This document shows, piece after piece, positions 5,791 to 27,498 of a stretch of 64,000 bases of DNA (position 1 is the stretch's first letter; each line of letters begins with the position of its first letter). Source of the DNA: Noviluteimonas gilva (lineage in GTDB: Bacteria > Pseudomonadota > Gammaproteobacteria > Xanthomonadales > Xanthomonadaceae); contig NZ_WOXT01000001.1 in NCBI RefSeq assembly GCF_009740395.1, positions 1,112,464 to 1,176,463 on the forward strand. The letters are read 5' to 3'. The translations under genes and the position numbers were made by a program. The notes under the pieces were generated by a model. That model searched no databases. It worked only from the letters and a program-made list of their open reading frames with translations, and had not been told where the DNA came from.

Positions 5791-5848
5791 GCTTGCACGT
5801 ACCTTCGATGGGACGGATTGACGTCGAGGGTAAGTGCTTCATAGAGTG

Positions 5849-5883
5849 GTGCGCAATACGCACAAAGCGTGCGCATAGCGCAC
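5849..5883. promoter_or_regulatory. Tandem IclR-type operators
   Basis: Two 15-bp near-perfect palindromes lie at 5849-5863 (GTGCG-CAATA-CGCAC) and 5869-5883 (GTGCGC-ATA-GCGCAC). They are direct copies of one another spaced 20 bp centre to centre, about two helical turns, which suits cooperative binding of dimers on one DNA face. Length and ends match known PcaU/PobR-type IclR sites. They sit between the divergent iclR gene and the aminotransferase gene, so one pair of sites can govern both directions. Confidence 0.75.
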
Positions 5884-5909
5884 AATTCCGGGAATGCGAG
5901 GGTGTCGCG

Positions 5910-7241
5910 ATGTCGATCGACGAACGCCAGTCGGTGCTGCATAGCTGGTCGGTCCAGGCCGACTGGCGTGCGCCGACGGTCGTCGGTGGCCAGGGCGCCC
6001 GCCTGCATCTCGCCGATGGCCGCAGCGTCCTCGACATGAGCAGCCTGGCCGAGTGCAGCAACCTCGGGCATCAGCATCCGAAGCTGGTCGCCGCCATTCG
6101 CGCGCAGGCCGAGCGCCTGTGTTTCGTCAGCAATGCTTGGGGTGCCGAGCCCCGTGCGCAGCTGGCCGCGATGTTGCTCGAACGTTCCGGTTTCGAAGGC
6201 GGGCGCGTGTTCTTCACCCTCGGCGGCGCGGATGCCAACGAAAACGCGGTGAAGATCGCGCGCCAGGTGTCGCGCAAGCCGCGCGGCGCGGTGATCGCGC
6301 GCGATCGCTCGTATCACGGCGCAACGCACCTGGCGATGGCGTTGTCGGGGGATTCGCGCACGCAGCAACAAGTGGATGCCGCGGCGTTCGGCGTGCAACA
6401 CGTGCCGCCGCCGTATGCGTATCGGTGTCCGTTCGGGAGTCGCGACGCCGATGAATGCGGCCTGCGCGCGGCGGATGCGGTGGCGCAGCGCATCGATGCG
6501 CTCGGCGCGAATTCCGTCGCCGCCGTGTTGATGGAACCGAACGCGGGCACCAACGGGATCGTCGCGCCGGACACGTACTGGCCTGCGTTGCGTCGCGCGA
6601 CCGCCGACCGCGGCGTTGTTTTGATCGCCGACGAAGTGATGAGCGCTTTCGGGCGATGCGGTGAATGGTTCGCGTGGCAACGCCAGGGCGAATCCGGCCG
6701 CCCCGACATGATGACGCTGGCGAAGGGCCTCACGGGCGCTGCGGTCCCCCTCGGCGCCGTCGTGCTTTCGCGCGACGTCGCCATGCGGCTCGAACACGAA
6801 ATGCTCTACACGGGTCTGACGTACTGCGGTCATCCGCTGGCTTGCGCCGCGGGCGTCGCCGCACTCGAGGCCTACGCGGAAGACGGCCTGATCGAACGCT
6901 CGCGCAAACTCGGCGCGAAGCTTTTCGCGCAAGCCAAGCGCCTGCAAGAGCGCCACGACGTCATCGGCGACGTGCGCGGCGGCCACGGCTTGTTCGTCGT
7001 GATCGAACTCGTCGCCGACCGCGACTCGCGCGCACCGCTCGCGCCGTGGCCGCAAACACCGCCTGCGCTGAAAGCGCTGGTCGACGCCGCGATGGCCGAA
7101 GGCGTGTCCTTCGCCACGCGCGGCAATCTCATCCTGCTCGCGCCGCCGTTGGTCATCGACGAAAACGAACTCGCCGATGCCGTCGCACTGCTCGATCGCC
7201 TGCTCGCGCGCCACTTTGCCCCCGCAGAGGTATCTCAATGA
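5910..7241 (+). CDS. Class III (omega-amino acid) aminotransferase
   Basis: A PLP-dependent aminotransferase of 443 residues. The PLP-binding lysine is K272 in TLAKGLTG, preceded by the cofactor aspartate D241 in IADEVMSAFGR. It resembles omega-amino acid:pyruvate and taurine:pyruvate aminotransferases, which convert a terminal primary amine to an aldehyde. Its stop overlaps the start of an aldehyde dehydrogenase gene (ATGA), so amine to aldehyde to acid is the obvious sequence of reactions. It is the first gene of the 14-gene operon, just downstream of the palindromic operators. The ATG at 5910 gives the conventional N-terminus; upstream in-frame codons run through the operator region and are not used. 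The amine donor is unknown. Confidence 0.88.
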   Translation: MSIDERQSVLHSWSVQADWRAPTVVGGQGARLHLADGRSVLDMSSLAECSNLGHQHPKLVAAIRAQAERLCFVSNAWGAEPRAQLAAMLLERSGFEGGRVFFTLGGADANENAVKIARQVSRKPRGAVIARDRSYHGATHLAMALSGDSRTQQQVDAAAFGVQHVPPPYAYRCPFGSRDADECGLRAADAVAQRIDALGANSVAAVLMEPNAGTNGIVAPDTYWPALRRATADRGVVLIADEVMSAFGRCGEWFAWQRQGESGRPDMMTLAKGLTGAAVPLGAVVLSRDVAMRLEHEMLYTGLTYCGHPLACAAGVAALEAYAEDGLIERSRKLGAKLFAQAKRLQERHDVIGDVRGGHGLFVVIELVADRDSRAPLAPWPQTPPALKALVDAAMAEGVSFATRGNLILLAPPLVIDENELADAVALLDRLLARHFAPAEVSQ

Positions 7242-8806
7242 GTTTTCGCCTGACCTACGCGACGATGTTCAATCCGCCGGCGGAGATGCATACGCAGTTC
7301 GAGGCCGCGCTCGCGCGCCTGGAAGCGCGCTTCGGCGAAAAACACCCGTTGTTCGTGAACGGCGCCGACCGGCAGCCCGCGAAGTGGGCGGCCAAACACA
7401 CCCCGATCGACACCAGCCTGGTCATCGGCGAATTTCCGCTCGCCGACGCCAAGGACGTCGACGCCGCGATGCGCGCCGCGCATGCCGCATATCCCGCGTG
7501 GCGCGCGCTGCCCGTCGCCGAACGCGCCGCGCTGCTGCGCAAGGCCGGCGACCTGATGCAGCAGCGCGTGTACGACATCGCCGCGGCGCTCACGCTGGAA
7601 GTCGGCAAGAACCGCATGGAGGCGCTCGGCGAAGCGCAGGAAACCGTCGATTTCTTCCATCACTACGCAGACGATTTCGAAAAACACGCAGGCTTCGAAA
7701 ACCTGCTGCCTGACGACCCGATCGAAGGCATGGCCTCGCACAATCGCAGCGTGATGCGGCCTTACGGTGCGTGGGTGGTGATTGCGCCGTTCAATTTCCC
7801 GTTCGCGCTCGCGGGCGGGCCGGTCGCGGCTGCATTGGTGACCGGCAACACCGTGGTCTTCAAGTCGGCGACCGACACGCCGTGGTCCGGGCGCCTGCTC
7901 GCCGAAGTGTTGCGCGATGCGGGCTTCCCGGCGGGCACGTTCAACTTCCTCTCGGGTAGCGGCAGCGAAGCGGGTGAAGCGCTGTCGAAGCATCCGCTCA
8001 CCGCGGGCATCACGTTCACCGGCTCGGTGCCGGTCGGCCGCAACCTGATGCAGAAGATGGCGGGCGGTGCCTATCCGCGTCCGTGCATCGCCGAGATGGG
8101 CGGCAAGAATCCGTGCATCGTCACCGAGAAGGCCGATCTCGATCGCGCCGCCGCCGGCATCGCGCGTTCGGCCTTCGGCATGGGCGGACAGAAGTGCTCC
8201 GCGCTCTCGCGCCTGTACGTGCACGAATCCGTCGCCGATGCACTGATCGAAAAACTCGTCACGCAGATTGATGCCATCCGCATTGGCGATGCACGCCAGC
8301 GCGAACATTGGCTCGGCCCGGTCGTCAACGCGAGCGCATACGCGAACTACGCGCGCTACGTGCTTGACCTCGAAGCCGGCGGTGCGCGCCTGATCCGCGG
8401 CGGAAAACAGATTCGCGAAAACGGCGGTTCCCGCGGCTATTACGTCGAACCCGTCCTCGCCGAAGCCGACCTCTCGCATCCGCTGTGGAAGCAGGAGATG
8501 TTCCTGCCGATCGTGATGCTGCATCGCTACACCGATCGCGACAAGGCGATGGCGCTGGCGAACGACACCGACATGGGCCTCACCGCGGGTTTCTACGGCG
8601 GCCCGGACGAAGTGCCGTGGTTCCAGGACCACATCGAAGCCGGTGTGACCTACGCCAATCGCCCGCAGGGCGCGACCACCGGCGCGTGGCCGGGCTATCA
8701 GCCCTTCGGCGGATGGAAAGGATCGGGTTCGACCGGCAAGGCGATCGCGTCCTTCTACTACCTGCAGCAATACCTGCGCGAACAGTCGCGCACGGTGGTG
8801 GAGTAA
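7238..8806 (+). CDS. Aldehyde dehydrogenase, P5C dehydrogenase-like
   Basis: NAD(P)-dependent aldehyde dehydrogenase of 522 residues. Catalytic Cys320 is in GMGGQKCSALSR and the general-base Glu286 in IAEMGGKNPC; APFNFP at 183-188 and the TGSVPVGR nucleotide-binding segment (261-268) are intact. Length and the GQKCSA context place it near the 1-pyrroline-5-carboxylate/glutamate-semialdehyde dehydrogenase branch, so a semialdehyde of a dicarboxylic or amino-dicarboxylic acid is the likely substrate. The ATG overlaps the aminotransferase stop (ATGA) and is preceded by GCAGAGG. It presumably oxidises the aldehyde made by that aminotransferase. The ALDH assignment is secure; the substrate is inferred. 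Confidence 0.88.
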   Translation: MSFRLTYATMFNPPAEMHTQFEAALARLEARFGEKHPLFVNGADRQPAKWAAKHTPIDTSLVIGEFPLADAKDVDAAMRAAHAAYPAWRALPVAERAALLRKAGDLMQQRVYDIAAALTLEVGKNRMEALGEAQETVDFFHHYADDFEKHAGFENLLPDDPIEGMASHNRSVMRPYGAWVVIAPFNFPFALAGGPVAAALVTGNTVVFKSATDTPWSGRLLAEVLRDAGFPAGTFNFLSGSGSEAGEALSKHPLTAGITFTGSVPVGRNLMQKMAGGAYPRPCIAEMGGKNPCIVTEKADLDRAAAGIARSAFGMGGQKCSALSRLYVHESVADALIEKLVTQIDAIRIGDARQREHWLGPVVNASAYANYARYVLDLEAGGARLIRGGKQIRENGGSRGYYVEPVLAEADLSHPLWKQEMFLPIVMLHRYTDRDKAMALANDTDMGLTAGFYGGPDEVPWFQDHIEAGVTYANRPQGATTGAWPGYQPFGGWKGSGSTGKAIASFYYLQQYLREQSRTVVE

Positions 8807-8813
8807 GTCGCGC

Positions 8814-9662
8814 GTGCAGGCGATGTCCCTCAGCGATGCGATCGCCGCGCATGTCGAAGACGGCGCGAGCGTGGCATTGGAAGGCTTCACGCACCTGATC
8901 CCGTTCGCCGCCGGCCATGAATTGATTCGCCAGCGCAAGCGCGATTTGCACCTGATCCGCATGACGCCGGACCTCATCTACGACGAGCTGATCGGCATGG
9001 GCTGCGCGCGCAAGCTGACGTTCTCGTGGGGTGGCAATCCCGGCGTGGGCTCGCTGCATCGGCTGCGCGATGCGGTCGAACATCAGTGGCCGCGGCGGCT
9101 CGAACTCGACGAACACAGCCATGCCGGCATGGTCGCGGCGTTCTGCGCGGGCGCGGCGCGGTTGCCGTTCGGCGTGTTGCGCGGCTATCTCGACAACGAC
9201 CTGGACAAGGCGAACGCGCGCATCCGTCGCGTCGAATGTCCGTTCACCGGCGAACGTCTCGCCGCGGTGCCCGCGCTCAATCCCGACGTGACGATCCTGC
9301 ACGCGCAACGCGCGGATCGCGCGGGCAATGTCGCGCTGCACGGCATCGTGGGGGCGGCGCGCGAGGCGGCGATGGCGGCGACGAAACTGATCGTGACCGT
9401 CGAAGAAATCGTCGATGCCTTGCCGCGGGCAATGAACGGCATCGTTCTGCCGCATTGGGTCGTCACCGCCGTCGTGCAGTGCCCCGGCGGCGCCTATCCG
9501 TCGTACGCGCAGGGCTTCTATGCGCGCGACAACGCCTTCTACCAACGCTGGGATGCGATCGCGCGCGACCGCGAGACCTTCCTGGCGTGGATGCAGACAC
9601 ACGTGCTCGAGACCGCGGACCACGCGGCCTTCCTCGCATCGCTGGACAGGCAGGCCGCATGA
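8814..9662 (+). CDS. CoA-transferase subunit A (alpha)
   Basis: A 282-residue family I CoA-transferase alpha subunit. It shows the characteristic N-terminal GASVALEGFTHLIPFAAGHE region and the SWGGNPGVGSLHR loop. It forms the transferase with the next gene and would move CoA from a donor such as succinyl-CoA to a carboxylic acid. I chose the GTG at 8814 because GGTGGTGGAG lies about ten bases upstream; an ATG at 8823 is also possible but too far from that site. The stop overlaps the next start as ATGA. With the divergent PcaF-type thiolase this makes a 3-oxoadipate-like end route, though the acceptor acid is not proven. Confidence 0.87.
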   Translation: MQAMSLSDAIAAHVEDGASVALEGFTHLIPFAAGHELIRQRKRDLHLIRMTPDLIYDELIGMGCARKLTFSWGGNPGVGSLHRLRDAVEHQWPRRLELDEHSHAGMVAAFCAGAARLPFGVLRGYLDNDLDKANARIRRVECPFTGERLAAVPALNPDVTILHAQRADRAGNVALHGIVGAAREAAMAATKLIVTVEEIVDALPRAMNGIVLPHWVVTAVVQCPGGAYPSYAQGFYARDNAFYQRWDAIARDRETFLAWMQTHVLETADHAAFLASLDRQAA

Positions 9663-10447
9663 CCGACGCCACGCGCGATGAGTGGATGACCGTCGCTGCC
9701 GCGCGCATGTTGCGCGATCGCTGCGTCTGTTTCGTCGGCATCGGCTTGCCGAGTGCGGCCTGCAATCTCGCGCGCCTCACGCATGCGCCGGACATCGTGT
9801 TGATCTACGAGTCCGGCACGATCGGCACGAAGCCCGATGTGTTGCCGCTGTCGATCGGCGATGGCGAACTCGCGGAAACCGCGGCGTTCGTCGTGCCGAT
9901 GCCCGATGTGTTCGCGTATTACCTGCAGGCCGGACGCGTCGATGTCGGCTTCCTCGGCGCGGCGCAGATCGACCGCTTCGGCAACTTGAACAGCACCGTC
10001 ATCGGCGACTACGAAGCGCCGTCCACGCGCTTGCCCGGCGCAGGCGGTGCGCCGGAAATCGCGGCGCATGCGCGCGAAACCTTCGTGATGTTGAAGGCGA
10101 CGCCGCGCAGCTTCGTCGGGCAACTGGATTTCCGCACGACCGCCGGCTTCGGCCGCGGTCATGGGGATCGCGCGCGCAGCGCCGCACACGGCGGTGGTCC
10201 GCGCGCGGTGATCACCGACTTCGGCCTCCTCGCGCCGCATGCGACCACCGACGAGCTGCAACTCACCGCGCTGTTCGAAGGCGCGACGATCGACGAAGCG
10301 CGCAAAGCCGTCGGTTGGCCGCTGGGCATCGCCGACGAAGTGACGCAAGTCCCGGCGCCCACGGCGCACGAACTCGACACCCTGCGCGCGCTGCATGCGC
10401 GCACCCGACAAGCCCACGCACAACCCGTGGTGTTGCCCACTCCATGA
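9659..10447 (+). CDS. CoA-transferase subunit B (beta)
   Basis: A 262-residue beta subunit, coupled by an ATGA overlap to subunit A. The catalytic glutamate expected in this subunit is E51 in the ESGTIGTKP motif. The segment VGFLGAAQIDRFGNLNST is typical of the family. Together the A and B subunits resemble the PcaIJ/CatIJ and glutaconate CoA-transferase branch. The stop codon overlaps the start of the next aminotransferase gene. Confidence 0.87.
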   Translation: MTDATRDEWMTVAAARMLRDRCVCFVGIGLPSAACNLARLTHAPDIVLIYESGTIGTKPDVLPLSIGDGELAETAAFVVPMPDVFAYYLQAGRVDVGFLGAAQIDRFGNLNSTVIGDYEAPSTRLPGAGGAPEIAAHARETFVMLKATPRSFVGQLDFRTTAGFGRGHGDRARSAAHGGGPRAVITDFGLLAPHATTDELQLTALFEGATIDEARKAVGWPLGIADEVTQVPAPTAHELDTLRALHARTRQAHAQPVVLPTP

Positions 10448-11781
10448 CCGGATCCCCCATGTCTTCCGAACACATCCGCATGCCGCTTCCCGGCCCGAAC
10501 GCGCAGGCGATGCTCGCGCGCGACGCCGAAGTCATTTCGCCGTCGTATCCGCGCGACTATCCGTTCGTGATGTCGCACGGGCGCGGCACGGAAGTGTGGG
10601 ACGTCGATGGCAATCGCTTCCTCGACTTCGCCGCGGGCATCGCGGTGTGCAGCACGGGCCACGCGCATCCGCAGGTCGTCGCGGCGGTGCAGGGCGCGGC
10701 CGCGAAGTTCCTGCACATTTCCAGCGATTACTGGCACGAGCAGATGATCGGGCTCGGCGAACGCCTGGCGCGCATCGCGCCGATGGGCGAGCCGGCGATG
10801 AGTTTCCTGTGCCAGTCGGGCACCGAAGCGGTGGAAGCGGCGATCAAGCTCGCGCGCTATGTCACCGGGCGCTCGCGCTTCATCGGATTCCTCGGTGGTT
10901 TCCATGGACGCACGATGGGCTCGCTTGCCTTCACCTCCAGCAAGTACACGCAGCAGAAGGGTTTCTTCGCCACGATGCCGGGCGTGGTGCACGTGCCGTA
11001 TCCGAACGCGTATCGGCCGCTCTTCGCGGGCGAAGACCAGGGCGCGGCCGTCCTCGATTACATCCGCATGCTGTTCGAACGCAGCGTGCCGCCGTCGGAA
11101 GTCGCGGCGATCCTCGTCGAGCCGATCCAGGGCGAAGGCGGCTACGTCGTACCGCCTGACGGTTTCCTCGCAGGCCTGCGCGCGCTGTGCGACGAGCACG
11201 GCATCCTGTTGATCTTCGATGAAGTGCAGTCGGGCACCGGCCGCACGGGACGCATGTACGCCAGCCAGCATTGGGGCGTGGCGCCCGACATCATGACGCT
11301 CGCCAAGGGACTGGGCTCGGGTTTGCCCATCGGCGCGATGGTCGCGAAGAAGCGCTTGATGTCGCAGTGGAAACGCGGTGCGCACGGCAACACCTACGGC
11401 GGCAATCCGATCGCATGCGCGGCGGCCAACGCGACGATCGACCTGGTCGAAGGCGGCATGGTCGGCAACGCGGCCACGGTCGGTGCGCATTTCATGGGCG
11501 CGTTGAACGACCTTGCGCGCGAGTACCCGTGCATCGGCGAAGTCCGCGGCAAGGGGCTGATGATCGGCATGGAACTCATCGAACCCGATGCCGCCCGCAC
11601 GCCGGCGCGCGCGCTGTGCGACGCGGTGGTGACGCGCGCATTCCACAATGGATTGCTGCTGCTGTCGTGCGGCGCGAGCACGGTGCGCTTCATGCCGCCG
11701 CTCAACGTGACGCGCGATGAAATCGACGAGGCGATGGCATTGCTGCGCCTCAGCCTTGACGAAGCCCTGGCCGGGGCCTGA
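10444..11781 (+). CDS. Second class III aminotransferase (4-aminobutyrate type)
   Basis: PLP-dependent aminotransferase, 445 residues from the ATG at 10444, which overlaps the CoA-transferase B stop; a second in-frame ATG at 10459 (MSSEHIRMP) is an equally plausible start. The PLP lysine K288 is in TLAKGLGSGLPIG and D259 in IFDEVQSGTGRTG. The sequence is nearer to GabT and acetylornithine-type aminotransferases than to the first aminotransferase of the operon, with which it shares only the family core. Having two different omega-transaminases in one operon suggests that the substrate, or two successive intermediates, carries more than one amino group. The exact substrate is unknown. Confidence 0.87.
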   Translation: MTGSPMSSEHIRMPLPGPNAQAMLARDAEVISPSYPRDYPFVMSHGRGTEVWDVDGNRFLDFAAGIAVCSTGHAHPQVVAAVQGAAAKFLHISSDYWHEQMIGLGERLARIAPMGEPAMSFLCQSGTEAVEAAIKLARYVTGRSRFIGFLGGFHGRTMGSLAFTSSKYTQQKGFFATMPGVVHVPYPNAYRPLFAGEDQGAAVLDYIRMLFERSVPPSEVAAILVEPIQGEGGYVVPPDGFLAGLRALCDEHGILLIFDEVQSGTGRTGRMYASQHWGVAPDIMTLAKGLGSGLPIGAMVAKKRLMSQWKRGAHGNTYGGNPIACAAANATIDLVEGGMVGNAATVGAHFMGALNDLAREYPCIGEVRGKGLMIGMELIEPDAARTPARALCDAVVTRAFHNGLLLLSCGASTVRFMPPLNVTRDEIDEAMALLRLSLDEALAGA

Positions 11782-11807
11782 CGCCGATGCGCGCCGGGGG
11801 GACGCGC

Positions 11808-14315
11808 ATGGCACGCACCGCGTGCATCGTCGCGCTGCTTGCATCCGCCGTCGCGGCGGCGAGCGGGCGCGAGCCGGTGCTCAAGCAGGTCGACCTGCCG
11901 CACAACTATTACTGGCGCGAGTTGTACCTGCCGCAATTGACGACGGGCCCGTCGGGCGTGAGCTTCATGCCCGACAACGAAACGCTCGTGTACAGCATGG
12001 GCGGATCGCTGTGGCGGCAGCGCATCGGTGATGACGAAGCGGTCGAACTCACGCATGCGAAGGGTGCGTACGACCATCAGCCCGATGTCGCGCGCGATGG
12101 GCGCAGCGTCGTGTTCACGCGTTACGACGGCGGTGGGCTCGAACTGTGGCGGCTTGATCTTGCAAGCGGCAAAACGCAGGCGCTCACGCAAGGTGGTGCC
12201 GTCAACGTCGAGCCGCGCTTGTCGCCGGACGGTCGCCGCATCGCGTGGGTGTCGACGCAAGGGACGGGGCACTTCAACCTTTTCATCGCCGACATCGACG
12301 CCGACGGCTTGCACAACGCGCATCCGCTGCTGGGCGAACGCAAGAGCAAGCTCGATCGTTACTACTATTCGGCCTTCGATCACGCGATCAATCCGTCGTG
12401 GTCGCCGGATGGAAAGTCGCTGCTGTATGTCGGCAATCCCGAGATCGCGTGGGGCACGGGCGACCTGTCGATCGTGTCGGTCGATGCGCCCGCGCAACGC
12501 CGCAAACTCCTCTCGGAAGAAACGAGCTGGAGCGCGCGCCCCGACTTCGCACCCGACGGCAAGCGCATCGTGTTTTCCAGCTACCACGGCCGGCAGACGC
12601 ACCAACTCTGGCTGACGAACGTGCAGGGCGCGGCGCCGTTGCCGCTGACGTTCGGCGAGACCGAGCGTCGCAATGCGCGCTGGTCGCCCGATGGCAAGCG
12701 CATCGCGTACATCGGCAACGCGGGCGCGGATGGCAACACGCAGTTGGTCGTGATGGAACCTTTGGGCGGCGCGAGCCGTGTGGTCGAAGCCAAGCGCCTG
12801 CGCACACTGTCGCCGACGGCACGCCTGACGCTCGACATTCGCGATGCCGGTGGCAAGCCCGTCCCGGCGCGCGTCTCCGTGCAGGGCAGCGATGGTCGCG
12901 CACACGCGGCGCGGAACGCCTGGATGCACGCCGACGATGGCTTCGATCGCGCCAAGCTCGCCACCGAAGGGCATTACTTCCACTGCGCCTCGCCGTGCAC
13001 GCTCGACGTGCCCGCGGGCGAGACGCAGATCGTCGTGCAGCGCGGCTTCGCGAACGACTTGTGGCAGCGGCGCATCGATGTCGCCGCCGGTCGCGAGACG
13101 ACCGTTGGGGTCTCGCTCGTCGCGCATCCGTTCCCGCCGGAGTTCGGCGATTGGATCAGCGCCGACCTGCACGTCCACATGAACTACGGTGGCCACTATC
13201 GCAACACGCCCGAACACCTGGCGTGGCAGGCGCAGGCCGAGGACCTCGACCTCGTCGAGAACCTCATCGTCAACAAGGAAGAGCGCATCCCGGATATCGC
13301 CTGGTTCGGGACGCCGGGGATCGGCACGCGGCCGCGCATTTCGCACGCGCAGGAATTCCACACGAGTTTCTGGGGCCACCTGGGGCTGTTGAACCTGCGC
13401 GAGAACTTCGTCGCGCCGGACTTCTCCGCGTATCGCCATACCGCGCTCGCGAGCCCGTGGCCGCACAACGGCGTCATCGCGGATCTCGCGCATGCGCAGC
13501 AGGGCCTGGTCGGTTACGTGCACCCGTTCGACACCGTGCCCGATCCGGTGAACGACGCATCGCTCACCCACCAATTGCCCGCCGATGTCGCGCACGGCAA
13601 GGTCGATTACATGGAAGTGGTCGGGTTCTCCGATCACAAGGCGACCGCGTCGGTCTGGTATCGCCTGATGAACCTCGGCTACCGCATCCCGGCCGGCGCG
13701 GGCTCCGACACGATGGCGAACTACGCATCGCTGCGCGGGCCGGTGGGCATGAATCGTGTGTTCCTCGATACGCAGGGACGTCTGGACGACGCATCGGTGT
13801 TCGCCGCGCTCAAGGCAGGGCGTGGGTTCGCCTCCAATGGCCCGATGCTCGGTCTGCTGGTCGACGACCACAAACCGGGCGACACGATCGCCGCCGGACG
13901 GCGCGTGAAGGTGCGCATCGCGTTGCATTCACCGGTGCCGGTCGATCACCTGGAACTGGTCGCGAACGGCGAAGTGATCCATCGCTTCGACCTCAGGGGC
14001 GACCGCACGCGCATGTGGGGGACCGGCGAGATCGATCTTCCGAAAGGCGGTTGGTTGCTCCTGCGCGCCTGGAACGACGACGCGAATCCGCTGTTGCTCG
14101 ACCTCTATCCGTACGCGACGACCAACCCCGTGTGGCTCGAAGGTCCCACGCCCGATGCACACGCCGATGCCGCGTATTTCGTCGCCTGGCTCGATCGCGT
14201 CATCGAAGCGACCGCCGCGCGAGACGACTACAACGACGCGACAGAAAAAGAAGCAACGCTCGCCTACCTGCGCGAAGCGCAATCCCTGATCCGCAAGCGC
14301 GCGGGAGACAAGTGA
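11808..14315 (+). CDS. Secreted CehA/McbA-like metallohydrolase with TolB-type propeller
   Basis: An 835-residue exported protein: signal peptide at 1-20 (ACIVALLASAVAAA), then WD40-like/TolB beta-propeller repeats (about 35-330, several SPDG(K/R)RIAW/VFSS units), a linker domain, and a PHP-like metallohydrolase domain with the metal motif DLHVH at 453-457. Enzymes of the CehA/McbA type hydrolyse carbamate and amide bonds, but family members are diverse. I chose the ATG at 11808 because GGGGGGA lies six bases upstream; the ATG at 11787 lacks a site. It is followed without gap by another secreted propeller protein, the S9 peptidase. It probably acts in the periplasm on the imported compound. 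Confidence 0.82.
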   Translation: MARTACIVALLASAVAAASGREPVLKQVDLPHNYYWRELYLPQLTTGPSGVSFMPDNETLVYSMGGSLWRQRIGDDEAVELTHAKGAYDHQPDVARDGRSVVFTRYDGGGLELWRLDLASGKTQALTQGGAVNVEPRLSPDGRRIAWVSTQGTGHFNLFIADIDADGLHNAHPLLGERKSKLDRYYYSAFDHAINPSWSPDGKSLLYVGNPEIAWGTGDLSIVSVDAPAQRRKLLSEETSWSARPDFAPDGKRIVFSSYHGRQTHQLWLTNVQGAAPLPLTFGETERRNARWSPDGKRIAYIGNAGADGNTQLVVMEPLGGASRVVEAKRLRTLSPTARLTLDIRDAGGKPVPARVSVQGSDGRAHAARNAWMHADDGFDRAKLATEGHYFHCASPCTLDVPAGETQIVVQRGFANDLWQRRIDVAAGRETTVGVSLVAHPFPPEFGDWISADLHVHMNYGGHYRNTPEHLAWQAQAEDLDLVENLIVNKEERIPDIAWFGTPGIGTRPRISHAQEFHTSFWGHLGLLNLRENFVAPDFSAYRHTALASPWPHNGVIADLAHAQQGLVGYVHPFDTVPDPVNDASLTHQLPADVAHGKVDYMEVVGFSDHKATASVWYRLMNLGYRIPAGAGSDTMANYASLRGPVGMNRVFLDTQGRLDDASVFAALKAGRGFASNGPMLGLLVDDHKPGDTIAAGRRVKVRIALHSPVPVDHLELVANGEVIHRFDLRGDRTRMWGTGEIDLPKGGWLLLRAWNDDANPLLLDLYPYATTNPVWLEGPTPDAHADAAYFVAWLDRVIEATAARDDYNDATEKEATLAYLREAQSLIRKRAGDK

Positions 14316-18842: not shown

Positions 18843-20160
18843 TCACGCGGTCAGCGGCGACGACGGCCAGCGCAAGCTCGGCTTCTGGATGTGCACCGCG
18901 CTGGTGGTGGGCAACACCATCGGCATCGGGATCTTCCTGCTGCCCGCCTCCTTGGCGCCGTTCGGGTTCAACGCGACGATCGGCTGGCTCGTCACGGTCC
19001 TGGGTTGCGTCGCGTTGGCCAACGTTTTCGCGCGCCTGGCCCGAGAAATGCCCAATGCCGACGGGCCCTACGGCTTCATTCGCGCCACGCTCGGCGACAT
19101 TCCCGCGTTCATCGCAATGTGGTGCTACTGGGTGTCGTTGTGGATCACGAATGCGGCGATCGCCACGGGCGTGGTCGGCTATCTCGGCGCGGTGTTTCCG
19201 TCCGTGGCCACGATGCAGCCGGCGCTGGTCGCGCTCGCATTGTTGTGGACGTTCGTGATCATCAATCTGTTCGGCGTGCGCACCGGCGGCCGCGTGCAGG
19301 TGGTGACCACCGCGCTGAAGTTGTTGCCGATGCTCGCCGTCGCCTTGCTCGGCGGCTGGCTGCTCCTCACGGCGCCTGCAACCTACACCGCGCATTTGCC
19401 GACGGCGCCGGTCGACCTCGGCCACGTCGTGACGGCTTCGACCATCGCGTTGTTCGCGATGCTGGGCCTGGAATCGGCGACCGTGCCCGCCTCGCGCGTC
19501 AAGGATCCGGGCCGCACGATTCCGCGCGCCACGATCGTCGGCACGCTGCTGACCGCAGTCGTTTATCTCATCGTCTCGACCGTCCCGATGATGCTGATCC
19601 CGCAAGGGGAACTCGCCACCGCGAACGCGCCGTTCGCATTGGTGATGGACCGCTTCGCCGCCGCGGGATCGGGGCGGTGGCTCGCCTTGTTCGTCGTGAT
19701 CAGCGGCCTGGGCGCGCTCAACGGATGGACGCTGCTGGTCGGCGAACTCACGCGCGCGATGGCCTTGAACGGTGTGATGCCGATGCCGCTGGCGCGCAAC
19801 AACCGTCGCGGCGCGCCTGCGATCGCGCTGGTCGTCACGGGGCTGCTGGGCAGCGGCATGGTGCTGCTGAGCTACAGCAGGTCGCTGGTCGAGGGTTTCA
19901 CCTTCATCACCAATGTGGTGACCGCGGCCAACCTGCCGCTGTACCTGTGCGCGTCGCTGGCGCTGGCGGTGTTGTGGCGCCGCGGCGACAAGGCCGGCGT
20001 GCGCGGGATGCTGCCGGTCGCGGTCCTGGGCACGGCGTACGTGATCTTCGCCTTCGTCGGCCTGGGGCACGAGCCGTTCCAGCTCGGCGTGGTGCTCGCG
20101 GCGGCGGGGCTGCCGCTGTATTTGTTCATGCGCGTCCGCCGCCCCGCGGCGGTGGCTTAA
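18832..20160 (+). CDS. APC-family amino acid/amine permease
   Basis: A 442-residue inner-membrane protein with about 12 hydrophobic segments. TM1 carries the unwound substrate-site motif GNTIGIGIFLLP near residue 27, as in arginine/agmatine-type APC transporters. The ATG at 18832 lies inside the amidohydrolase gene and has GGAG nine bases upstream; an upstream in-frame ATG at 18772 would add 20 non-hydrophobic residues and is unlikely. It is the only inner-membrane transporter of the operon, so it is probably the entry route for the product of the exported hydrolases. Substrate inferred: amino acid, polyamine or betaine-like compound. Confidence 0.87.
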   Translation: MASDHAVSGDDGQRKLGFWMCTALVVGNTIGIGIFLLPASLAPFGFNATIGWLVTVLGCVALANVFARLAREMPNADGPYGFIRATLGDIPAFIAMWCYWVSLWITNAAIATGVVGYLGAVFPSVATMQPALVALALLWTFVIINLFGVRTGGRVQVVTTALKLLPMLAVALLGGWLLLTAPATYTAHLPTAPVDLGHVVTASTIALFAMLGLESATVPASRVKDPGRTIPRATIVGTLLTAVVYLIVSTVPMMLIPQGELATANAPFALVMDRFAAAGSGRWLALFVVISGLGALNGWTLLVGELTRAMALNGVMPMPLARNNRRGAPAIALVVTGLLGSGMVLLSYSRSLVEGFTFITNVVTAANLPLYLCASLALAVLWRRGDKAGVRGMLPVAVLGTAYVIFAFVGLGHEPFQLGVVLAAAGLPLYLFMRVRRPAAVA

Positions 20161-20170
20161 CATCGGTCCC

Positions 20171-21505
20171 ATGAACCCCGCTTCCGCCAACCTGTTCGTC
20201 GCCGACAGCGAAGACAACCAGGCCCGCATGCAGCAGGCCGTCGCCGCGCAATCGCGCGACCGCGACGCCGGGCTCATGCAGTACTTCTACCGCTCCGACG
20301 TGGTGTACCAGCGCGAGCTGGACACCGTGTTCTTCAAGAGCTGGCTGTGGGCCGGCCACGTCAGCCAGATTCCGAATCCGGGCGATTACTTCCTCTACGA
20401 GATCGGCGAGGAATCGGTGATCGTGGCGCGCGGCAACGACGGCGAGATTCGCGCGCTGGTCAATTCCTGCCGTCATCGCGGCTCGCGCGTGTGCGAGGAA
20501 CGCCAGGGCAATTGCCGGACCTTCGTCTGCCCGTACCACGGTTGGGTCTACGGCACCGACGGCGCGTTGCGTGCCGCGCGCCACATGGACGTGGTGACCG
20601 ACTTCCGCAAGGAAGACCACGGCCTCAAGCAACTGCGCGTGGCCGAACGCTTCGGCCTGATCTTCATCAACTTCGATCCCGACGCCTACGACTACAACGT
20701 GGCCCTGGCGCAGCTCGACGCGCAACTGGGCCCGTATCGCCTGGACAAAGCGAAGATCGCGCATCGCGAAACCTATTCGGTCGATGCGAACTGGAAGATC
20801 GCGCTCGGCAATTACCTCGAGTGCTACCACTGCGAAACCGCGCATCGCGCGTATTCGAAGCTACACACGTTCAAGGAACGCGAGGAAGTGGTCGCGCCGA
20901 TCAATCGCGCGATGTGGGAACGCGCCGAGCGCGAAACCGGCGTTCCCGACATCGAGAAGGCGCTCTATCGCATGTTCCGCGAAGCGCCGGGCTTCGGCGC
21001 GTGCGTGTACACCAGTCGCTATGCGTTGTTCGACGGTTACCTCACCGGTAGCCGCGACGGCACGCCGGTCGCGCCGCTGATGGGCGAGTTCAAGGGCTAC
21101 GACGGCGGCGCGGGCGATTACCAGCTCGGCCCGCTCACCTACATGCTCAACTATCCGGACCACTGCCTCCTGTTCCGCTACGTTCCCTTCGGGAAGAACA
21201 AGACGGACATGGAGATCGTGTGGTTCGTCAACGGCGATGCGGTCGAAGGCGTCGACTACGACAAGGCCGCGCTGATCTGGTTGTGGGACGTCACCACCGT
21301 CGAAGACAAGCGGATCATGCAGTTGAACGCCGCGGGCGTGAACTCGCGGTTCTTCGAGCCCGGTCCGCAACATCCCGAGTTCGAAGACACGCCCAAGCGC
21401 TTCGTGGATTGGTACATGCATGCGCTCGCCGGCGACTTCAGCGTCGTGCCGCCGACGGTGCGCGCGCATCGCACCAGCTCCTGCGAAATGACAGAACACC
21501 CCTGA
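20171..21505 (+). CDS. Rieske non-heme iron oxygenase, alpha subunit (quaternary-amine type)
   Basis: A 444-residue terminal oxygenase. The Rieske cluster ligands are C100, H102, C120 and H123 (SCRHRGS ... VCPYHGW), and the mononuclear iron site is NYLECYHCETAH with H220 and H225. The residue that bridges electron transfer, usually Asp, is Glu217 here, as in carnitine (CntA) and glycine betaine (GbcA) type oxygenases, so an N-methylated amine is a better guess than an aromatic hydrocarbon. No reductase or ferredoxin gene is present in the operon, so electrons must come from elsewhere or from an unexpected partner. It starts the last sub-block of the operon, with a methyltransferase and two flavoproteins. 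Confidence 0.88.
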   Translation: MNPASANLFVADSEDNQARMQQAVAAQSRDRDAGLMQYFYRSDVVYQRELDTVFFKSWLWAGHVSQIPNPGDYFLYEIGEESVIVARGNDGEIRALVNSCRHRGSRVCEERQGNCRTFVCPYHGWVYGTDGALRAARHMDVVTDFRKEDHGLKQLRVAERFGLIFINFDPDAYDYNVALAQLDAQLGPYRLDKAKIAHRETYSVDANWKIALGNYLECYHCETAHRAYSKLHTFKEREEVVAPINRAMWERAERETGVPDIEKALYRMFREAPGFGACVYTSRYALFDGYLTGSRDGTPVAPLMGEFKGYDGGAGDYQLGPLTYMLNYPDHCLLFRYVPFGKNKTDMEIVWFVNGDAVEGVDYDKAALIWLWDVTTVEDKRIMQLNAAGVNSRFFEPGPQHPEFEDTPKRFVDWYMHALAGDFSVVPPTVRAHRTSSCEMTEHP

Positions 21506-21528
21506 TTTTCCAGCGGATAACCTCCAAG

Positions 21529-22725
21529 ATGTTCCAGCTCAAACACACGCCCTTCCACGAGCGTACGTCGAAGCTCAGCCTGCCGCAGAACTGGCGGCGC
21601 TGGGCCGGACACATCGTGGTCGGCTCCTACGACCTGCACGTCGAACGCGAGTACTGGGCGATCCGCGACGCGGTCGCGTTGATCGACGTCTCGCCGCTGA
21701 TGAAGTACATGATCGAAGGCCCCGATGCCGCGCGCCTGCTCGACAAACTCGTGCCGCGCGACATCGGCAAGATGGCGGTCGGCCAGGTCGGCTACACCGG
21801 TTGGTGCGACGACGAAGGCAAGCTGCTCGACGACGGCACGATCTCGCGCCTGGGCGAAACCACGTTCCGCCTGACATCCGCCGAGCCTTCGCTGCGTTGG
21901 TTGTCGATGAACGCCGTCGGCCTGGACGTCACGGTCACCGAAGTCACCGAGAAGATGGGCGCGCTCAGCCTGCAGGGCCCGAAGGCGCGCACCGTGCTCA
22001 ACCTGGTGTGCAAGAAGTCGCTCGACAAGCTCAAGTACTTCCGGGTGATGGAGAACACGCTCGCGGGCAAGAAGGTCACGATCTCGCGCACCGGTTACAC
22101 GGGTGATCTGGGTTACGAAATCTGGATGGAAACCGCCGACGCGCTCGCCGTGTGGGACGCGTTGATGGAAGCGGGGCACAACTACGGCATCGTGCCGTGC
22201 GGCATCCTCGCGATGGACATGGCGCGCGTGGAAGCAGGCCTGTTCATGATCGACGTCGATTACACCGCGGCCAACCACGCGTGGATCGAAGGGCAGAAAT
22301 CATCGCCGCTGGAGATGGGTCTGGATTGGGCCGTGCATCTCGACAAGCCCGGTTACTTCGTCGGCCGCCGCGCGCTCGAGCGCGAACAGCGCGAAGGCTC
22401 GGCGTGGAAGCTCATGGGCTTCGAAGTCGATTGGGCCGGCATGGAACCCTTGTTCGCCGCCGTCGGTTTGCCGCCGCAGATTCCCGCGATGGCGGTGCGC
22501 GGCAGCCTGCCGGTCAAGCAAGGCGACAAACAGGTCGGTTATGCATCGACCAGCACCTGGTCGCCCGTGTTGAAGAAATACATCGCGCTCGTCCACCTGC
22601 AACGTCCGTACTACGAGCCCGGCACGCCGCTCACGATGGAAGTCACCGTCGAGCACAAGCGCCTGCAGGCACCGGGCAAGGTGGTGAAGCTGCCGTTCTA
22701 CGAGCCGGAGTGGAAGAAGAAATGA
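21529..22725 (+). CDS. GcvT-like aminomethyltransferase family protein
   Basis: A 398-residue protein of the glycine-cleavage T-protein fold, with the folate-binding GcvT domain over about 30-290 (VGYTGWCDDEGKLLDDG, then RTGYTGDLGYEIWM) and the C-terminal barrel (about 300-390). Family members use tetrahydrofolate to accept methyl or methylene groups from N-, O- or S-methyl compounds (T-protein, DmdA, LigM, sarcosine dehydrogenase domains). It is not the housekeeping gcvT, since no gcvH or gcvP is nearby. Following the Rieske oxygenase it probably captures a one-carbon unit. The stop overlaps the next start by ATGA. Confidence 0.84.
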   Translation: MFQLKHTPFHERTSKLSLPQNWRRWAGHIVVGSYDLHVEREYWAIRDAVALIDVSPLMKYMIEGPDAARLLDKLVPRDIGKMAVGQVGYTGWCDDEGKLLDDGTISRLGETTFRLTSAEPSLRWLSMNAVGLDVTVTEVTEKMGALSLQGPKARTVLNLVCKKSLDKLKYFRVMENTLAGKKVTISRTGYTGDLGYEIWMETADALAVWDALMEAGHNYGIVPCGILAMDMARVEAGLFMIDVDYTAANHAWIEGQKSSPLEMGLDWAVHLDKPGYFVGRRALEREQREGSAWKLMGFEVDWAGMEPLFAAVGLPPQIPAMAVRGSLPVKQGDKQVGYASTSTWSPVLKKYIALVHLQRPYYEPGTPLTMEVTVEHKRLQAPGKVVKLPFYEPEWKKK

Positions 22726-24305
22726 CGAGCAACCAGTACGACGCCATCGTCATCGGCGCCGGCCACAACGGCCTGATCGCGGCCGCGTATCTCGCGCGCG
22801 CGGGCAAGAAAGTGTGCGTGCTCGAACGGCGCGAAGTCGTCGGCGGCGCGGCGGTCACCGCCGAACCGTTCCCCGGCTATCGCTTCAGCCAGTTCTCCTA
22901 CGTCGTCAGCCTGCTGCGTCCGGAAATCATCCGCGACCTCGAGTTGCCGAAGCACGGTTTGAAGATCCTCCCGCTGCCGAGCACCGTGACGCCGATGGAC
23001 AACGGCGATTACCTCGCCGCGTGGGACGACCACGACCTCACGCGCCAGGAGCTGTACCGCCATTCGCCGCGCGATGCCGAAGCCTCCGACGAATACGGCC
23101 GCGTGATGGCGCGCGCCGCGAAGGCGATCAAGCCGATCCTCGGCCTGGTGCCGCCGGATCCGTCGTCGATGAGCCCGCGCGACCTGCTTGGCCTGCTGAA
23201 GGTCGGCCAGTACGCGAAGAGCCTGTCGGAGAAGGAGCTTTACCAGATCGCCAAGCTGCTCACGATGTCGGCGGCGGACTTGCTCAACGATTGGTTCGAG
23301 TTCGATCCGCTCAAGGGCACGAAGTCGGCGAGCGGCATCATCGGCACCTTCCTCGGTCCGCATTCGCCCGGCACGGCGTACGTGCTGCTGCATCACTACA
23401 TGGGCGAAATCGACGGCGCGTTCCGCGCTTGGGGTTTCGCGAAGAACGGTAACGGCGGCGTGTCGGCGGCGATCGCGAGTTCGGCGCGTGCGTTGGGCGT
23501 CGAAGTCCGCACGAACGCCTCCGTGCAGCAGGTCATCGTGCAGGGCGGTCGCGCCGCGGGCGTTGCGCTCGCCAACGGCGATGAGTTGCGCGCGAAGGTC
23601 GTGATTTCCGCGGCCGACCCCAAGCGCAGCTTCCTGCAGTTCGTCGAGCGCAAGCACCTGCCCGGCGAGTTCGTGCAGCAGATCGAAAACTTCCGCGTGC
23701 GCGGGTCGTCGGGCAAGGTCAACATCGCGCTGAGCGAGCTGCCGGACTTCACGTGCCTGCCGGGCGAAGGCCCGTTGCATCGCGGCGCGATTTCGATCAG
23801 CCCGAGCATGGAGTACATCGAGCGCGCCTACGACGAGGCGAAGTACGGCCAGTTCGCGAAGAACCCGTACATCGACATGATCATCCCGTCGATGATCGAC
23901 CGCGACATGGCGCCGCCGGGCCACCACGTGATGTCCTGCTTCGTGCAGTACGCGCCCTACGACATCGAAGGCGGTTGGGACGATGCGAAGCGCGAGGCCT
24001 TCGGCGAGACCGTGATCTCCACGATCGAGCGTTACGCGCCGAACATCCGCCGCGCGATCGTCGGCAAGCAGGTGATCACGCCGAAGGACATCGAGATGAT
24101 CGCCGGCATCACCGGCGGCAACATCTTCCACGGCGAATTGCTGCTGCACCAATTGTTCTTCCTGCGTCCGGCGCCGCAGTGGGCCGATTTCCGCACGCCG
24201 TTGCCGGGCTATTACTTCGGTGCGTCCGGCGCGCATCCGGGCGGTGGCGTCATGGGCGCGGCCGGCAAGCTGGCGGCAATGGAAGTGCTGAAGGACTGGA
24301 AGTGA
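22722..24305 (+). CDS. NAD(P)/FAD-dependent oxidoreductase (phytoene-desaturase/PYROXD2-like), copy 1
   Basis: A 527-residue flavoprotein. The dinucleotide-binding fold IVIGAGHNGLIAA starts at residue 9, followed by the acidic VLERR end of the second strand; the C-terminus has the FAD-closing segment GAHPGGGVMGAAG. It belongs to the COG1233 group, which includes carotenoid desaturases and amine-oxidase-like enzymes, mostly uncharacterised. Coupled by overlap to both neighbours, it is a tandem paralogue of the next gene. It could oxidise a C-N or C-C bond of the demethylated product; no carotenoid genes are present, so a desaturase role is unlikely. Confidence 0.84.
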   Translation: MTSNQYDAIVIGAGHNGLIAAAYLARAGKKVCVLERREVVGGAAVTAEPFPGYRFSQFSYVVSLLRPEIIRDLELPKHGLKILPLPSTVTPMDNGDYLAAWDDHDLTRQELYRHSPRDAEASDEYGRVMARAAKAIKPILGLVPPDPSSMSPRDLLGLLKVGQYAKSLSEKELYQIAKLLTMSAADLLNDWFEFDPLKGTKSASGIIGTFLGPHSPGTAYVLLHHYMGEIDGAFRAWGFAKNGNGGVSAAIASSARALGVEVRTNASVQQVIVQGGRAAGVALANGDELRAKVVISAADPKRSFLQFVERKHLPGEFVQQIENFRVRGSSGKVNIALSELPDFTCLPGEGPLHRGAISISPSMEYIERAYDEAKYGQFAKNPYIDMIIPSMIDRDMAPPGHHVMSCFVQYAPYDIEGGWDDAKREAFGETVISTIERYAPNIRRAIVGKQVITPKDIEMIAGITGGNIFHGELLLHQLFFLRPAPQWADFRTPLPGYYFGASGAHPGGGVMGAAGKLAAMEVLKDWK

Positions 24306-25825
24306 TGACGACCGATAAAAAGTACGACGTGATCGTCGTCGGTGCGGGCCACAACGGCCTGGTCGCCGCGAACTACCTCGCCAAGGCCGGCCGCAAGGTG
24401 CTGGTGCTGGAGCGGCGCGACCGCGCGGGCGGGCAATTGTCGGCGGAAGAACTCGGCGGCGTTGCGTTCGATCCGCTGCATCCGGGCGCGCAACTGCGGC
24501 CCGACATCGTGCGCGACCTGGATCTCGCGCGACATGGTTGGGTCGCGGGCGCATCGGCGCCGTACATCGCGCTGCAGCCCGATGGCCGTTCCCTGGTGTT
24601 GTCGACGAAGGACGTGAATCTCGCCGCCACGGTCGAATCGATCCGCCAGTTCTCCGAGAACGACGCGCAACGTTGGCCCGACTTCGTCGCCTTCATGGAT
24701 CGCGCCGCCGTGTTCCTCGATGCGGCCTATCGCACGCCGATGCCGCGCCTGCCCCATGTCGGTTTCGAAGACGGCTGGCCGCTGGCGAAACTCGCGTGGA
24801 CCCTGCGTCGCCTCGGCGGCAAGGACATGTTCCGCGTCATCCGCATGATGTCGATGTCGACGGTGGAGTTCACCGAAGAGTGGTTCGAATCCGAGCCGGT
24901 GCGCGCGGCCATCGCCGCGGTCGGCATCCATGGATACACGCTCGGTTCGATGTCGGCGGGCACCGGTTACACGCTGATGCACAACTGGTTGCATCGCGGT
25001 GGGCTCGCGCATCGGCAGATCGCTGGTGGCAGTTCGACGGTCACCAAGGCGCTCGTCGCTGCGTTGAAGGCGAACGGTGGGCAGTTGCGCACGTCGGCCG
25101 GTGTCGAACGCATCGTGATCGAGAAGATGCGCGCCACGGGCGTGCGGCTCGACAGCGGCGAAGAACTCCTCGCGACCACGGTGTTCTCCGCCGCCGATCC
25201 GAAGCACACGCTGCTCGGCCTGGTCGGTGCGCCGGAACTGCCGACCGAATTCGTGTGGCACGTGCAGTCGATCAAGATGCGCGGCTCGCTCGCGAAAGTG
25301 CACCTGCGCACCGACGGCAGCCATGGATTGCCTGCGGGCACGCTTGCGATCGCGCCCACGCTGAAGGACCTGGAACGCGCCTACGACGCCGCGAAGTACG
25401 GCGAAATTGCGCAGCGCCCGTATCTGGAAGTCACGACGGCGGGCGACATCGTGTCGATCCACGTGCAATCGGCGCCGCACAAGTTGCGCGGCCTCGATTG
25501 GCACGATGCGCGCGCGACGGTGGAGCGCATCGCGATCGACATGCTTGCGGCGCAATTCCCGGCGTTGAAGGCTTCGATCCGCGAGACGCGCACGATCGCC
25601 GCACCCGATCTGGAACGCGAATGGGGCCTGACCGAAGGCGACCTCAGCCACGGCCAGCCGATCCTCGACCAGATGTTCTTCATGCGCCCGTTGCCGGGCT
25701 GGTCGAACCACGCCACGCCGATCGATGCGCTGTATCTGTGCGGCAACGGCATGCACGGTGGCGCGGGCATCAGTGGTGCGCCGGGTCGCAATGCCGCGCA
25801 GATGTTGCTGAAGCGGAAGGCCTGA
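24305..25825 (+). CDS. NAD(P)/FAD-dependent oxidoreductase (phytoene-desaturase/PYROXD2-like), copy 2
   Basis: A 506-residue flavoprotein, paralogous to the preceding gene: IVVGAGHNGLVAANYLAKAG at 10-29, VLERR after it, and the C-terminal FAD segment CGNGMHGGAGISGAPG. The two copies have diverged over most of their length, so they probably act on different intermediates or form a heterodimer. The ATG overlaps the previous stop. This is the last gene of the operon; its TGA directly abuts the stop of the convergent marR gene. Confidence 0.84.
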   Translation: MTTDKKYDVIVVGAGHNGLVAANYLAKAGRKVLVLERRDRAGGQLSAEELGGVAFDPLHPGAQLRPDIVRDLDLARHGWVAGASAPYIALQPDGRSLVLSTKDVNLAATVESIRQFSENDAQRWPDFVAFMDRAAVFLDAAYRTPMPRLPHVGFEDGWPLAKLAWTLRRLGGKDMFRVIRMMSMSTVEFTEEWFESEPVRAAIAAVGIHGYTLGSMSAGTGYTLMHNWLHRGGLAHRQIAGGSSTVTKALVAALKANGGQLRTSAGVERIVIEKMRATGVRLDSGEELLATTVFSAADPKHTLLGLVGAPELPTEFVWHVQSIKMRGSLAKVHLRTDGSHGLPAGTLAIAPTLKDLERAYDAAKYGEIAQRPYLEVTTAGDIVSIHVQSAPHKLRGLDWHDARATVERIAIDMLAAQFPALKASIRETRTIAAPDLEREWGLTEGDLSHGQPILDQMFFMRPLPGWSNHATPIDALYLCGNGMHGGAGISGAPGRNAAQMLLKRKA

Positions 25826-26320: not shown

Positions 26321-26339
26321 GAACATGCCCCGGGGTATG

Positions 26340-26353: not shown

Positions 26354-26362
26354 TATGGGGTG

Positions 26363-26368: not shown

Positions 26369-26399
26369 GCGCCTTTCCCCCTCGCCCGAAAAGAATGCC

Positions 26400-27491: not shown

Positions 27492-27498
27492 TGCCGTG

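Follow-up and report, generated by a model that had tools for sequence, protein, structure and literature searches.

Textbooks present the beta-ketoadipate pathway as the end of aromatic degradation, and its genes (pcaIJ or catIJ, pcaF and pcaR) are commonly taken as evidence of that process. Aerobic degradation of L-beta-lysine in a Pseudomonas, reportedly worked out by Barker's group, is said to proceed through acetylation of the omega-amine and to end in 4-aminobutyrate and succinate. Removal of methyl groups from amines is represented by Rieske quaternary-amine enzymes (GbcA, CntA and Stc2) and by GcvT-linked N-demethylation of the dimethylglycine/sarcosine and trimethylamine N-oxide (TMAO) demethylase types. 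Here we describe a locus of Noviluteimonas gilva that resembles each of these systems in part: a 14-gene catabolic operon on the plus strand (5910–25825) of a 64,000-nucleotide stretch of contig NZ_WOXT01000001.1 (hereafter the window, whose numbering is used throughout), together with a divergent minus-strand unit. The window sits in a 3.39 Mb genome assembled as 8 contigs.

As in the beta-ketoadipate pathway, the locus has a thiolase of PcaF level, a PcaR/PcaU-type regulator with its operators, and a CoA-transferase whose nearest relatives outside the operon lie in a pca cluster; unlike that pathway, it also carries transaminases, an aldehyde dehydrogenase, peptidases and amine-demethylation genes. 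The resemblance to the Pseudomonas beta-lysine route lies in a pair of transaminases, a step at the CoA level and thiolytic cleavage to C4 and C2 products, but no acetyltransferase was seen in the operon and the intermediate we propose is 3-oxoadipate. The Rieske oxygenase (RO) lies near solved structures of quaternary-amine enzymes, and the Rieske protein of one relative lies near CntA; RO nevertheless scores only 284 bits against the GbcA equivalog model (NF058607, cut-off 670), and its partners are GcvT and two phytoene-desaturase-like flavoproteins. A folate-binding GCV_T protein beside flavoproteins is also a feature shared with GcvT-linked N-demethylation, except that the flavoproteins here belong to the amine-oxidase/phytoene-desaturase group and GcvT is a separate protein.

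Judged from sequence comparison, the operon is one conserved regulated unit, and it most likely ends in the conversion of 3-oxoadipate to succinyl-CoA and acetyl-CoA. We propose, with a probability of roughly 0.5, a scheme in which a PcaR-type regulator controls an operon that would convert an N-methylated basic compound to 3-oxoadipate and onwards to succinyl-CoA and acetyl-CoA. The simplest substrate that would fit all steps is a beta-lysine unit N-methylated at its omega-amine. We infer the step order, the substrate and the inducer, while the conserved unit, the enzyme families and the operators come from the sequence itself.

Conservation, control and predicted ending of the operon

We base the beta-ketoadipate ending on the PcaF and PcaR/PcaU/PobR models, the operators and the pca-cluster relatives of the CoA-transferase. 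The predicted 3-oxoadipyl-CoA thiolase (3785–4978, minus strand) scores 634 bits against TIGR02430, above the cut-off of 597. The comparison set comprised 22 relatives (G001–G003 of the genus and 19 others), which together with the window genome make 23 operon-bearing genomes; one relative, G451, is represented by a 4.9 kb contig that accounts for one miss in every gene count below 22 of 22. The PcaF model is passed in 20 of the 23 and in the operon-less genome G021, and in none of 14 control genomes. The exceptions are G048 (591.5 bits), G003, whose contig ends within the thiolase gene, and G648; in G451, the passing gene lies on a contig other than the operon piece.

The CoA-transferase subunits, CoA_A (8814–9662) and CoA_B (9659–10447), belong to the CoA_trans family (PF01144). 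The nearest structures to CoA_A are of glutaconate CoA-transferase types, and the two subunits resemble CatI and CatJ of Pseudomonas B13 in size. The strongest evidence for the ending, which is assigned by comparison, is the pca cluster of G021: there, pcaH, pcaG and pcaB, each over the cut-off of its model, are immediately preceded by homologues of CoA_A (65% identity), CoA_B (61%) and the thiolase (65%), and about 6 kb further on comes a regulator gene that also passes the PcaR/PcaU/PobR model. Outside the operon, no CoA-transferase relatives closer than these pcaH-pcaG-pcaB neighbours were found. The original prediction, made from this stretch alone, held that no single known pathway explains the gene set; the end of the route can now be recognised as that of the beta-ketoadipate pathway.

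The regulator gene (iclR; 4975–5790, minus strand) encodes an IclR-family protein of the PcaR/PcaU/PobR group (TIGR02431, 291 bits, cut-off 284.75). According to PMC8222616, the motifs of PcaR, PcaU, PobR and further regulators fall into the class GTNCG-N5-6-CGNAC, that of PcaU being TTTGTTCGATWATCGMACAMA, and PMC12285266 describes induction of pcaIJ expression by beta-ketoadipate in Agrobacterium. The operators of the window match this class motif. Directly downstream of a sigma-70-like site, the predicted promoter of the 14-gene operon (TTGACG-18-TAGAGT, 5818–5847, plus strand), lie two exact 15-bp palindromes spaced 20 bases, GTGCGCAATACGCAC at 5849–5863 and GTGCGCATAGCGCAC at 5869–5883. 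Across an alignment of 14 of the 21 available control regions, TTGAC of the promoter and the core CGCAATACG of the first operator are invariant. In 5 of 20 relatives the counterpart of the second operator matches the 17-base PcaU core without a mismatch; the window's own best match to that core has 5 mismatches.

The promoter-like site is weak when taken alone (1 found on both strands of 5801–25800, versus 2.2 in shuffles), and single GTGCGN5CGCAC palindromes, with one mismatch allowed, occur at chance level (18 in the window versus 20 expected). The significance of the operators therefore rests on the conserved pair. When no more than one mismatch is allowed, all 21 control regions (the window and 20 relatives) contain two GTNCG-N5-CGNAC boxes at a spacing of 19 or 20 bases; shuffled regions gave a pair 15–25 bases apart in 0 of 500 cases for 19 regions and in 2 of 500 for two, the window included. 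A tandem operator common to the operon and the divergent unit, as had been predicted, is thus present and kept in every control region compared. A third exact GTGCGN5CGCAC palindrome, at 45606–45620, is solitary and far from the operon.

The anticipated 14 consecutive plus-strand genes with gaps of at most 26 bases are borne out by the open reading frames (ORFs) and translations of the window, with intergenic distances of −11 to +26 bases. The listed ORF 9682–11781 is misleading, as CoA_B runs in another frame until 10447 and AT2 comes next. The divergent unit, which has its control region in common with the operon, consists of iclR, the thiolase, a TPR and sulfotransferase-domain protein (2046–3788, minus strand; Pfam Sulfotransfer_3 and TPR) and a TonB-dependent receptor (1–2004, minus strand) that starts near 2004 and continues past the left end of the window.

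In G001–G003 all 14 genes are in order, and the divergent genes are present too, up to the ends of the contigs. Matches to RO at about 90% identity and near full length are confined to these three genomes, with none in the fourth, G004 (60 genomes searched, the window's included). The aldehyde dehydrogenase (ALDH) has a match in 21 of 398 genomes of the order, the window's own included, and in the class and phylum samples only in the window genome at the strict thresholds used (1 of 369 at E 1e-140; 1 of 398 at E 1e-120). Among the 22 relatives, ALDH, CoA_A, CoA_B and the second transaminase (AT2) are present in every locus; the first transaminase (AT1), iclR, the S9-type peptidase (S9) and the amidohydrolase (AmH) in 21; and the thiolase, the sulfotransferase, the adjoining TonB receptor and the APC permease in 20. 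Two exported hydrolases are more variable: the beta-aminopeptidase-type S58 is found in 18 relatives (operon strand in 5, inverted in 13; absent from 3, not covered in 1), and CehA in 16, being missing from 6, one of these a contig cut short. The exported hydrolases noted originally are therefore present in the window and partly optional elsewhere. The core order TonB-sulfo-thiolase-iclR / AT1-ALDH-CoA_A-CoA_B-AT2-S9-...-AmH-APC is maintained across families, so gene order in the 22 relatives shows conservation of far more than small parts. In 16 of them an exported hydrolase gene stands between the sulfotransferase and thiolase genes (for example L124 5889–7358 and L160 4160–6490); we call it M20-type from a reading of translations, and it was not found in the genus stretches.

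The putative amine-demethylation module

The last four genes of the operon encode RO (20171–21505), placed on the GbcA side near quaternary-amine demethylases, a GcvT-family folate-binding aminomethyltransferase (21529–22725; PF01571) and two paralogous flavin amine-oxidase/phytoene-desaturase-like oxidoreductases, FAD1 (22722–24305) and FAD2 (24302–25825; both PF01593). The nearest structures to RO are 3n0q (223 bits), 4qup (215 bits) and 3vca, a demethylase among them (4qup), and we take them to be Stc2-like. GcvT aligns with the C-terminal part of TMAO demethylase, below the cut-off (NF053776, 285 bits against 1100).

A Rieske gene belongs to the locus in all 22 relatives (in G451 as a piece at the contig end), and its sequences fall into three groups. 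The RO type is found in the genus only (3 of 22), G668 and G758 carry a second type, and the other 17 a third. The second type is about 40% identical to the third, inverted, and sits 0.8–1.6 kb beyond FAD2 (L157 8486–9814, L159 5876–7021), GcvT-FAD1-FAD2 being present alongside it. Of the third type, the G048 copy is nearest to the carnitine monooxygenase CntA, and the others are 58–86% similar over the covered stretches. In 16 of the 22 relatives the Rieske gene lies within the core, between S9/S58 and AmH.

The flavoprotein partner also differs between relatives. An amine flavoprotein module is present in 20 of 22 relatives, as GcvT-FAD1-FAD2 in 5 (FAD1 at 92–97% and FAD2 at 71–80% identity) and as a histamine/trimethylamine-dehydrogenase-like protein in 15; the two never occur together in one locus. 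In 15 of the 17 relatives with the third Rieske type, the flavoprotein adjoins APC. The one copy tested, from G759, scores higher against histamine dehydrogenase (820 bits) than against trimethylamine dehydrogenase (577 bits), which weakens its identification as the latter; as a lead, it has Glu and Asp where the trimethylamine dehydrogenase active site presumably has Tyr60 and Trp355. Outside the order, RO relatives stand beside the GcvT family in 52 and the FAD family in 47 of 80 loci (80 kept of 594), and in Ruegeria, Leisingera and a few other loci beside a histamine-dehydrogenase-like protein. The RO type thus occurs with either flavoprotein system, and the same would hold for the Rieske genes of the CntA side, were the G668 type included with them. 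We interpret the pattern as one job, in which a quaternary or tertiary amine would lose methyl or amine groups by oxidation, probably done by interchangeable enzymes: the Rieske genes and swapped flavoprotein modules point to quaternary-amine N-demethylation. Neighbouring genes in the loci outside the order suit polyamine-like methylated amines. Among them are a gene for a glutamine-synthetase-like protein, whose one tested copy does not reach the cut-off for gamma-glutamylputrescine synthetase, and genes for formyl-tetrahydrofolate (THF) deformylase, agmatinase and a polyamine-transport ATPase that pass their models (one copy each).

Among the alternatives, the one that survives best keeps the ending as proposed and leaves beta-lysine unmethylated, with the Rieske/flavoprotein module serving a second substrate (a betaine or trimethylamine, for example) and sharing the operon by convenience. 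It would account for the start of the window's amine module after APC, where gene order varies and a terminator-like site lies, and for the independence of the RO-GcvT-FAD1-FAD2 module in many marine bacteria. However, a module held by convenience fits poorly with a Rieske gene in the locus of every relative and inside the core in most, and we consider this alternative rather unlikely, though it deserves more weight than those that follow. One of the places originally named as a possible transcript break, 20160–20171, is better described as an evolutionary joint: the amine module after APC is swapped in most relatives, with the terminator-like site just before it.

Separately from the operon, a FAD1-FAD2-GcvT-Rieske module recurs in SAR92, Halieaceae and other marine genomes (L016–L077), often with formyl-THF deformylase, class III transaminases or a gene resembling glutamine synthetase next to it, and may be a methylated-amine pathway of its own. 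RO-GcvT-FAD1-FAD2 in the order of the window, at 66–88% identity, is also found at 2630–8262 of L015 (contig JANYBA010000326.1 of a metagenome-assembled genome), where 13.9 of 15.9 kb were covered and no match to the hydrolase or transaminase genes of the window was present.

Upstream enzymes and a proposed substrate

AT1 (5910–7241) is a class III transaminase whose nearest solved structure is taurine:2-oxoglutarate transaminase (6jix, 262 bits), which acts on an amine in the beta position to an acid group. AT2 (10459–11781; alternative start 10444), also of class III, passes NF004426 (574 bits, cut-off 552), and its best structure, 7vno, is named 4-aminobutyrate aminotransferase and is, we presume, an archaeal ornithine delta-aminotransferase. 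ALDH (7238–8806) is closest to 1-pyrroline-5-carboxylate (P5C) dehydrogenases (3qan, 282 bits) and falls below NCBIfam cut-offs (NF002852, 391 bits against 648). Four hydrolases have signal-like N-termini, as judged by eye from the translations: a beta-propeller and CehA/McbA metallohydrolase, CehA (11787–14315, alternative start 11808; NF038032, 223 bits, cut-off 80); a Dpp5-like S9-type peptidase, S9 (14312–16318; NF053518, 240 bits, below the cut-off of 900); a DmpA/beta-aminopeptidase-type peptidase, S58 or P1 (16315–17514), with a full-length Peptidase_S58 domain (PF03576, 391 bits, profile 1–305 of 307) and 334 and 294 bits to 1b65 and 3n2w; and a carboxypeptidase/prolidase-type amidohydrolase, AmH (17511–18842), of ambiguous specificity, which passes the Xaa-Pro dipeptidase model (NF051886, 514 bits, cut-off 500) and is nearest to the Arg carboxypeptidase Cc2672 (3mtw, 312 bits). 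The APC permease (18832–20160) is nearest to basic amino acid/polyamine antiporters (TIGR00905, 268 bits, below the cut-off of 409).

Beta-lysine (3,6-diaminohexanoate) is ornithine with one additional CH2 adjacent to the acid. Its omega-transamination, oxidation of the resulting semialdehyde and transamination of the 3-amino group would yield exactly 3-oxoadipate. Singly these clues are moderate; jointly they fit a peptide-borne, beta-lysine-like residue better than the other candidates considered, and such a residue is our specific, tentative proposal. The peptide-like, N-methylated, nitrogen-rich nutrient of the original prediction remains the best guess.

We envision the following route. 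The exported CehA-type, S9, S58 and AmH hydrolases would release a basic N-methylated amino compound from peptide-like material, and the TonB receptor and APC permease would import it. The Rieske oxygenase would take off the first methyl group, and FAD1, FAD2 and the folate-binding GcvT protein the remaining ones. One transaminase, probably the ornithine-type AT2, would convert the free omega-amine to a semialdehyde, which the P5C-type ALDH would oxidise to the acid; the other, the taurine/beta-amino-type AT1, would turn the 3-amino into a 3-oxo group, giving 3-oxoadipate. CoA_A/CoA_B and the PcaF thiolase would then produce succinyl-CoA and acetyl-CoA, and 3-oxoadipate would probably release the regulator from the tandem operators. 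The fuller claim is held tentatively: that this is a complete, undescribed route for peptide-released N-methylated beta-lysine-type units, in which 3-oxoadipate arises by transamination and aldehyde oxidation and not by ring cleavage, a PcaR-type switch is re-used as sensor, and N-demethylation is done by unrelated enzymes in different lineages.

Several observations weigh against this scheme. The original prediction spoke of a complete route, and no Rieske reductase gene was seen in the operon. The specificities of the transaminases and ALDH are guessed from neighbours with moderate scores, and the pcaI and pcaJ models hit CoA_A and CoA_B weakly (23.6 bits against a cut-off of 128.5, and 32.8 against 243.6). 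CntA-type Rieske relatives might release trimethylamine, in which case it is hard to see what one of the transaminases would do. We know of no common natural N-methylated beta-lysine, and found no report of it or of such a nutrient in the open-licence literature. Of 16 genomes, 15 have a single match to the lysine 2,3-aminomutase family, four operon-less ones among them, and G668 has two; with no dedicated intracellular source of beta-lysine seen, the cell would need an external supply of it. The G648 locus is without a thiolase, and no gene of that genome exceeds the PcaF cut-off, and the G048 locus lacks both APC and an amine flavoprotein. Finally, a terminator-like site on the operon strand at 20098–20119, within the 3' end of the APC gene and some 50 bases ahead of RO, speaks against a single unbroken transcript, although it is no proof of a transcript end.

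The substrate could instead be an alpha-amino acid derivative, such as N-methylated ornithine or lysine from lipids or proteins, with the CoA-transferase and thiolase handling another acid. AT2 and ALDH do resemble ornithine (7vno, as presumed above) and P5C enzymes, and AmH resembles Arg carboxypeptidase and prolidase enzymes, but such a route would end in glutamate or 2-oxoadipate and leave the conserved PcaF, CoA-transferase and PcaR-type control without a role; we think it improbable. Two further candidates were rejected. Homarine, a first idea from the Rieske gene and the marine module relatives, does not lead to the beta-ketoadipate ending, and no description of a homarine operon was found in the open-licence literature; for glycine betaine, the GbcA score is far below its cut-off and the C6 machinery would go unexplained.

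If the beta-lysine reading is true, it would identify a peptide-like nutrient for which these bacteria have the necessary genes, and would yield a small testable set of enzymes, including phytoene-desaturase-like flavoproteins and a folate-binding GcvT protein for N-demethylation. Searches of the open-licence literature on beta-lysine degradation, CatIJ and trimethyllysine/Rieske topics did not find this pathway, nor did we find there a report of Rieske, GcvT and phytoene-desaturase-like proteins paired for N-demethylation.

Ring-cleavage genes, transcription and neighbouring genes

The operon contains no ring-opening, cycloisomerase or lactonase genes. A PcaH search (TIGR02422) of 25 genomes (5 of the genus, 19 other operon-bearing ones and G021) passed in G021 only, with sub-cut-off matches in 7; it thus passed in none of the 23 operon-bearing genomes, pcaB/C/D, extradiol and phenylacetate genes not having been searched. 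For intradiol dioxygenases generally (PF00775), 15 of the 23 have no match. Each of the five genus genomes, including the operon-less G004, has one match over the cut-off, a copy that reaches 168–179 bits where the PcaH model requires 296, and whose N-terminus looks exported in 3 of 4 loci. Among the 19 other operon-bearing genomes, 15 have none, G048, G691 and G776 one weak match each, and G451 two, one of them strong. The beta-ketoadipate ending is thus most likely used without the usual ring-cleavage enzyme. That an operon in 23 related genomes would use this ending, with the PcaH model passed in none, indicates that marker genes can mislead annotation.

These counts bear on whether the thiolase, CoA-transferase and PcaR-type regulator are simply the tail of an ordinary aromatic beta-ketoadipate pathway, with ring-cleavage genes elsewhere and the remaining genes unrelated. 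The G021 cluster, where homologues of the thiolase and CoA-transferase genes sit with pcaHGB, and the PF00775 matches in the genus and in G451, G048, G691 and G776 lend this some colour. Going by the two dioxygenase models searched, PcaH and PF00775, we nevertheless judge it quite improbable, given that PcaH passes in no operon-bearing genome, that most of these lack any PF00775 match, and that the genus copy is below the PcaH cut-off, exported-looking in 3 of 4 loci and also present where the operon is missing.

The claim of one transcription unit stands in part: it agrees with the one promoter-like site and the short gaps, and is called into question by the site at 20098–20119. Overall, terminator-like sites number 19 versus 13.3 expected (sd 3.6). 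Least probable of all is that the 20 kb are several adjacent operons with separate promoters, a view to which the inverted S58 of 13 relatives, the absence of CehA from 6 (one on a contig cut short), the swapping of the module beyond 20160 and the terminator-like site could be attached, but which is opposed by window gaps that never exceed 26 bases, by the single promoter-like site found and by the preserved order of the 14 genes in three of the four other genus genomes, the fourth being without the operon.

An Rfam search of the window gave 0 matches. The stretch 25826–28854 begins with a MarR-family gene that directly adjoins the operon on the opposite strand, and behind it come genes for 4-hydroxyphenylpyruvate dioxygenase and homogentisate dioxygenase; none of the three has a match in the locus stretches of relatives outside the genus. 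A link between the operon and the two dioxygenase genes (26319–28854) was rejected, as they lie behind the MarR gene on the opposite strand, and the three genes look like a separate tyrosine-degradation unit.

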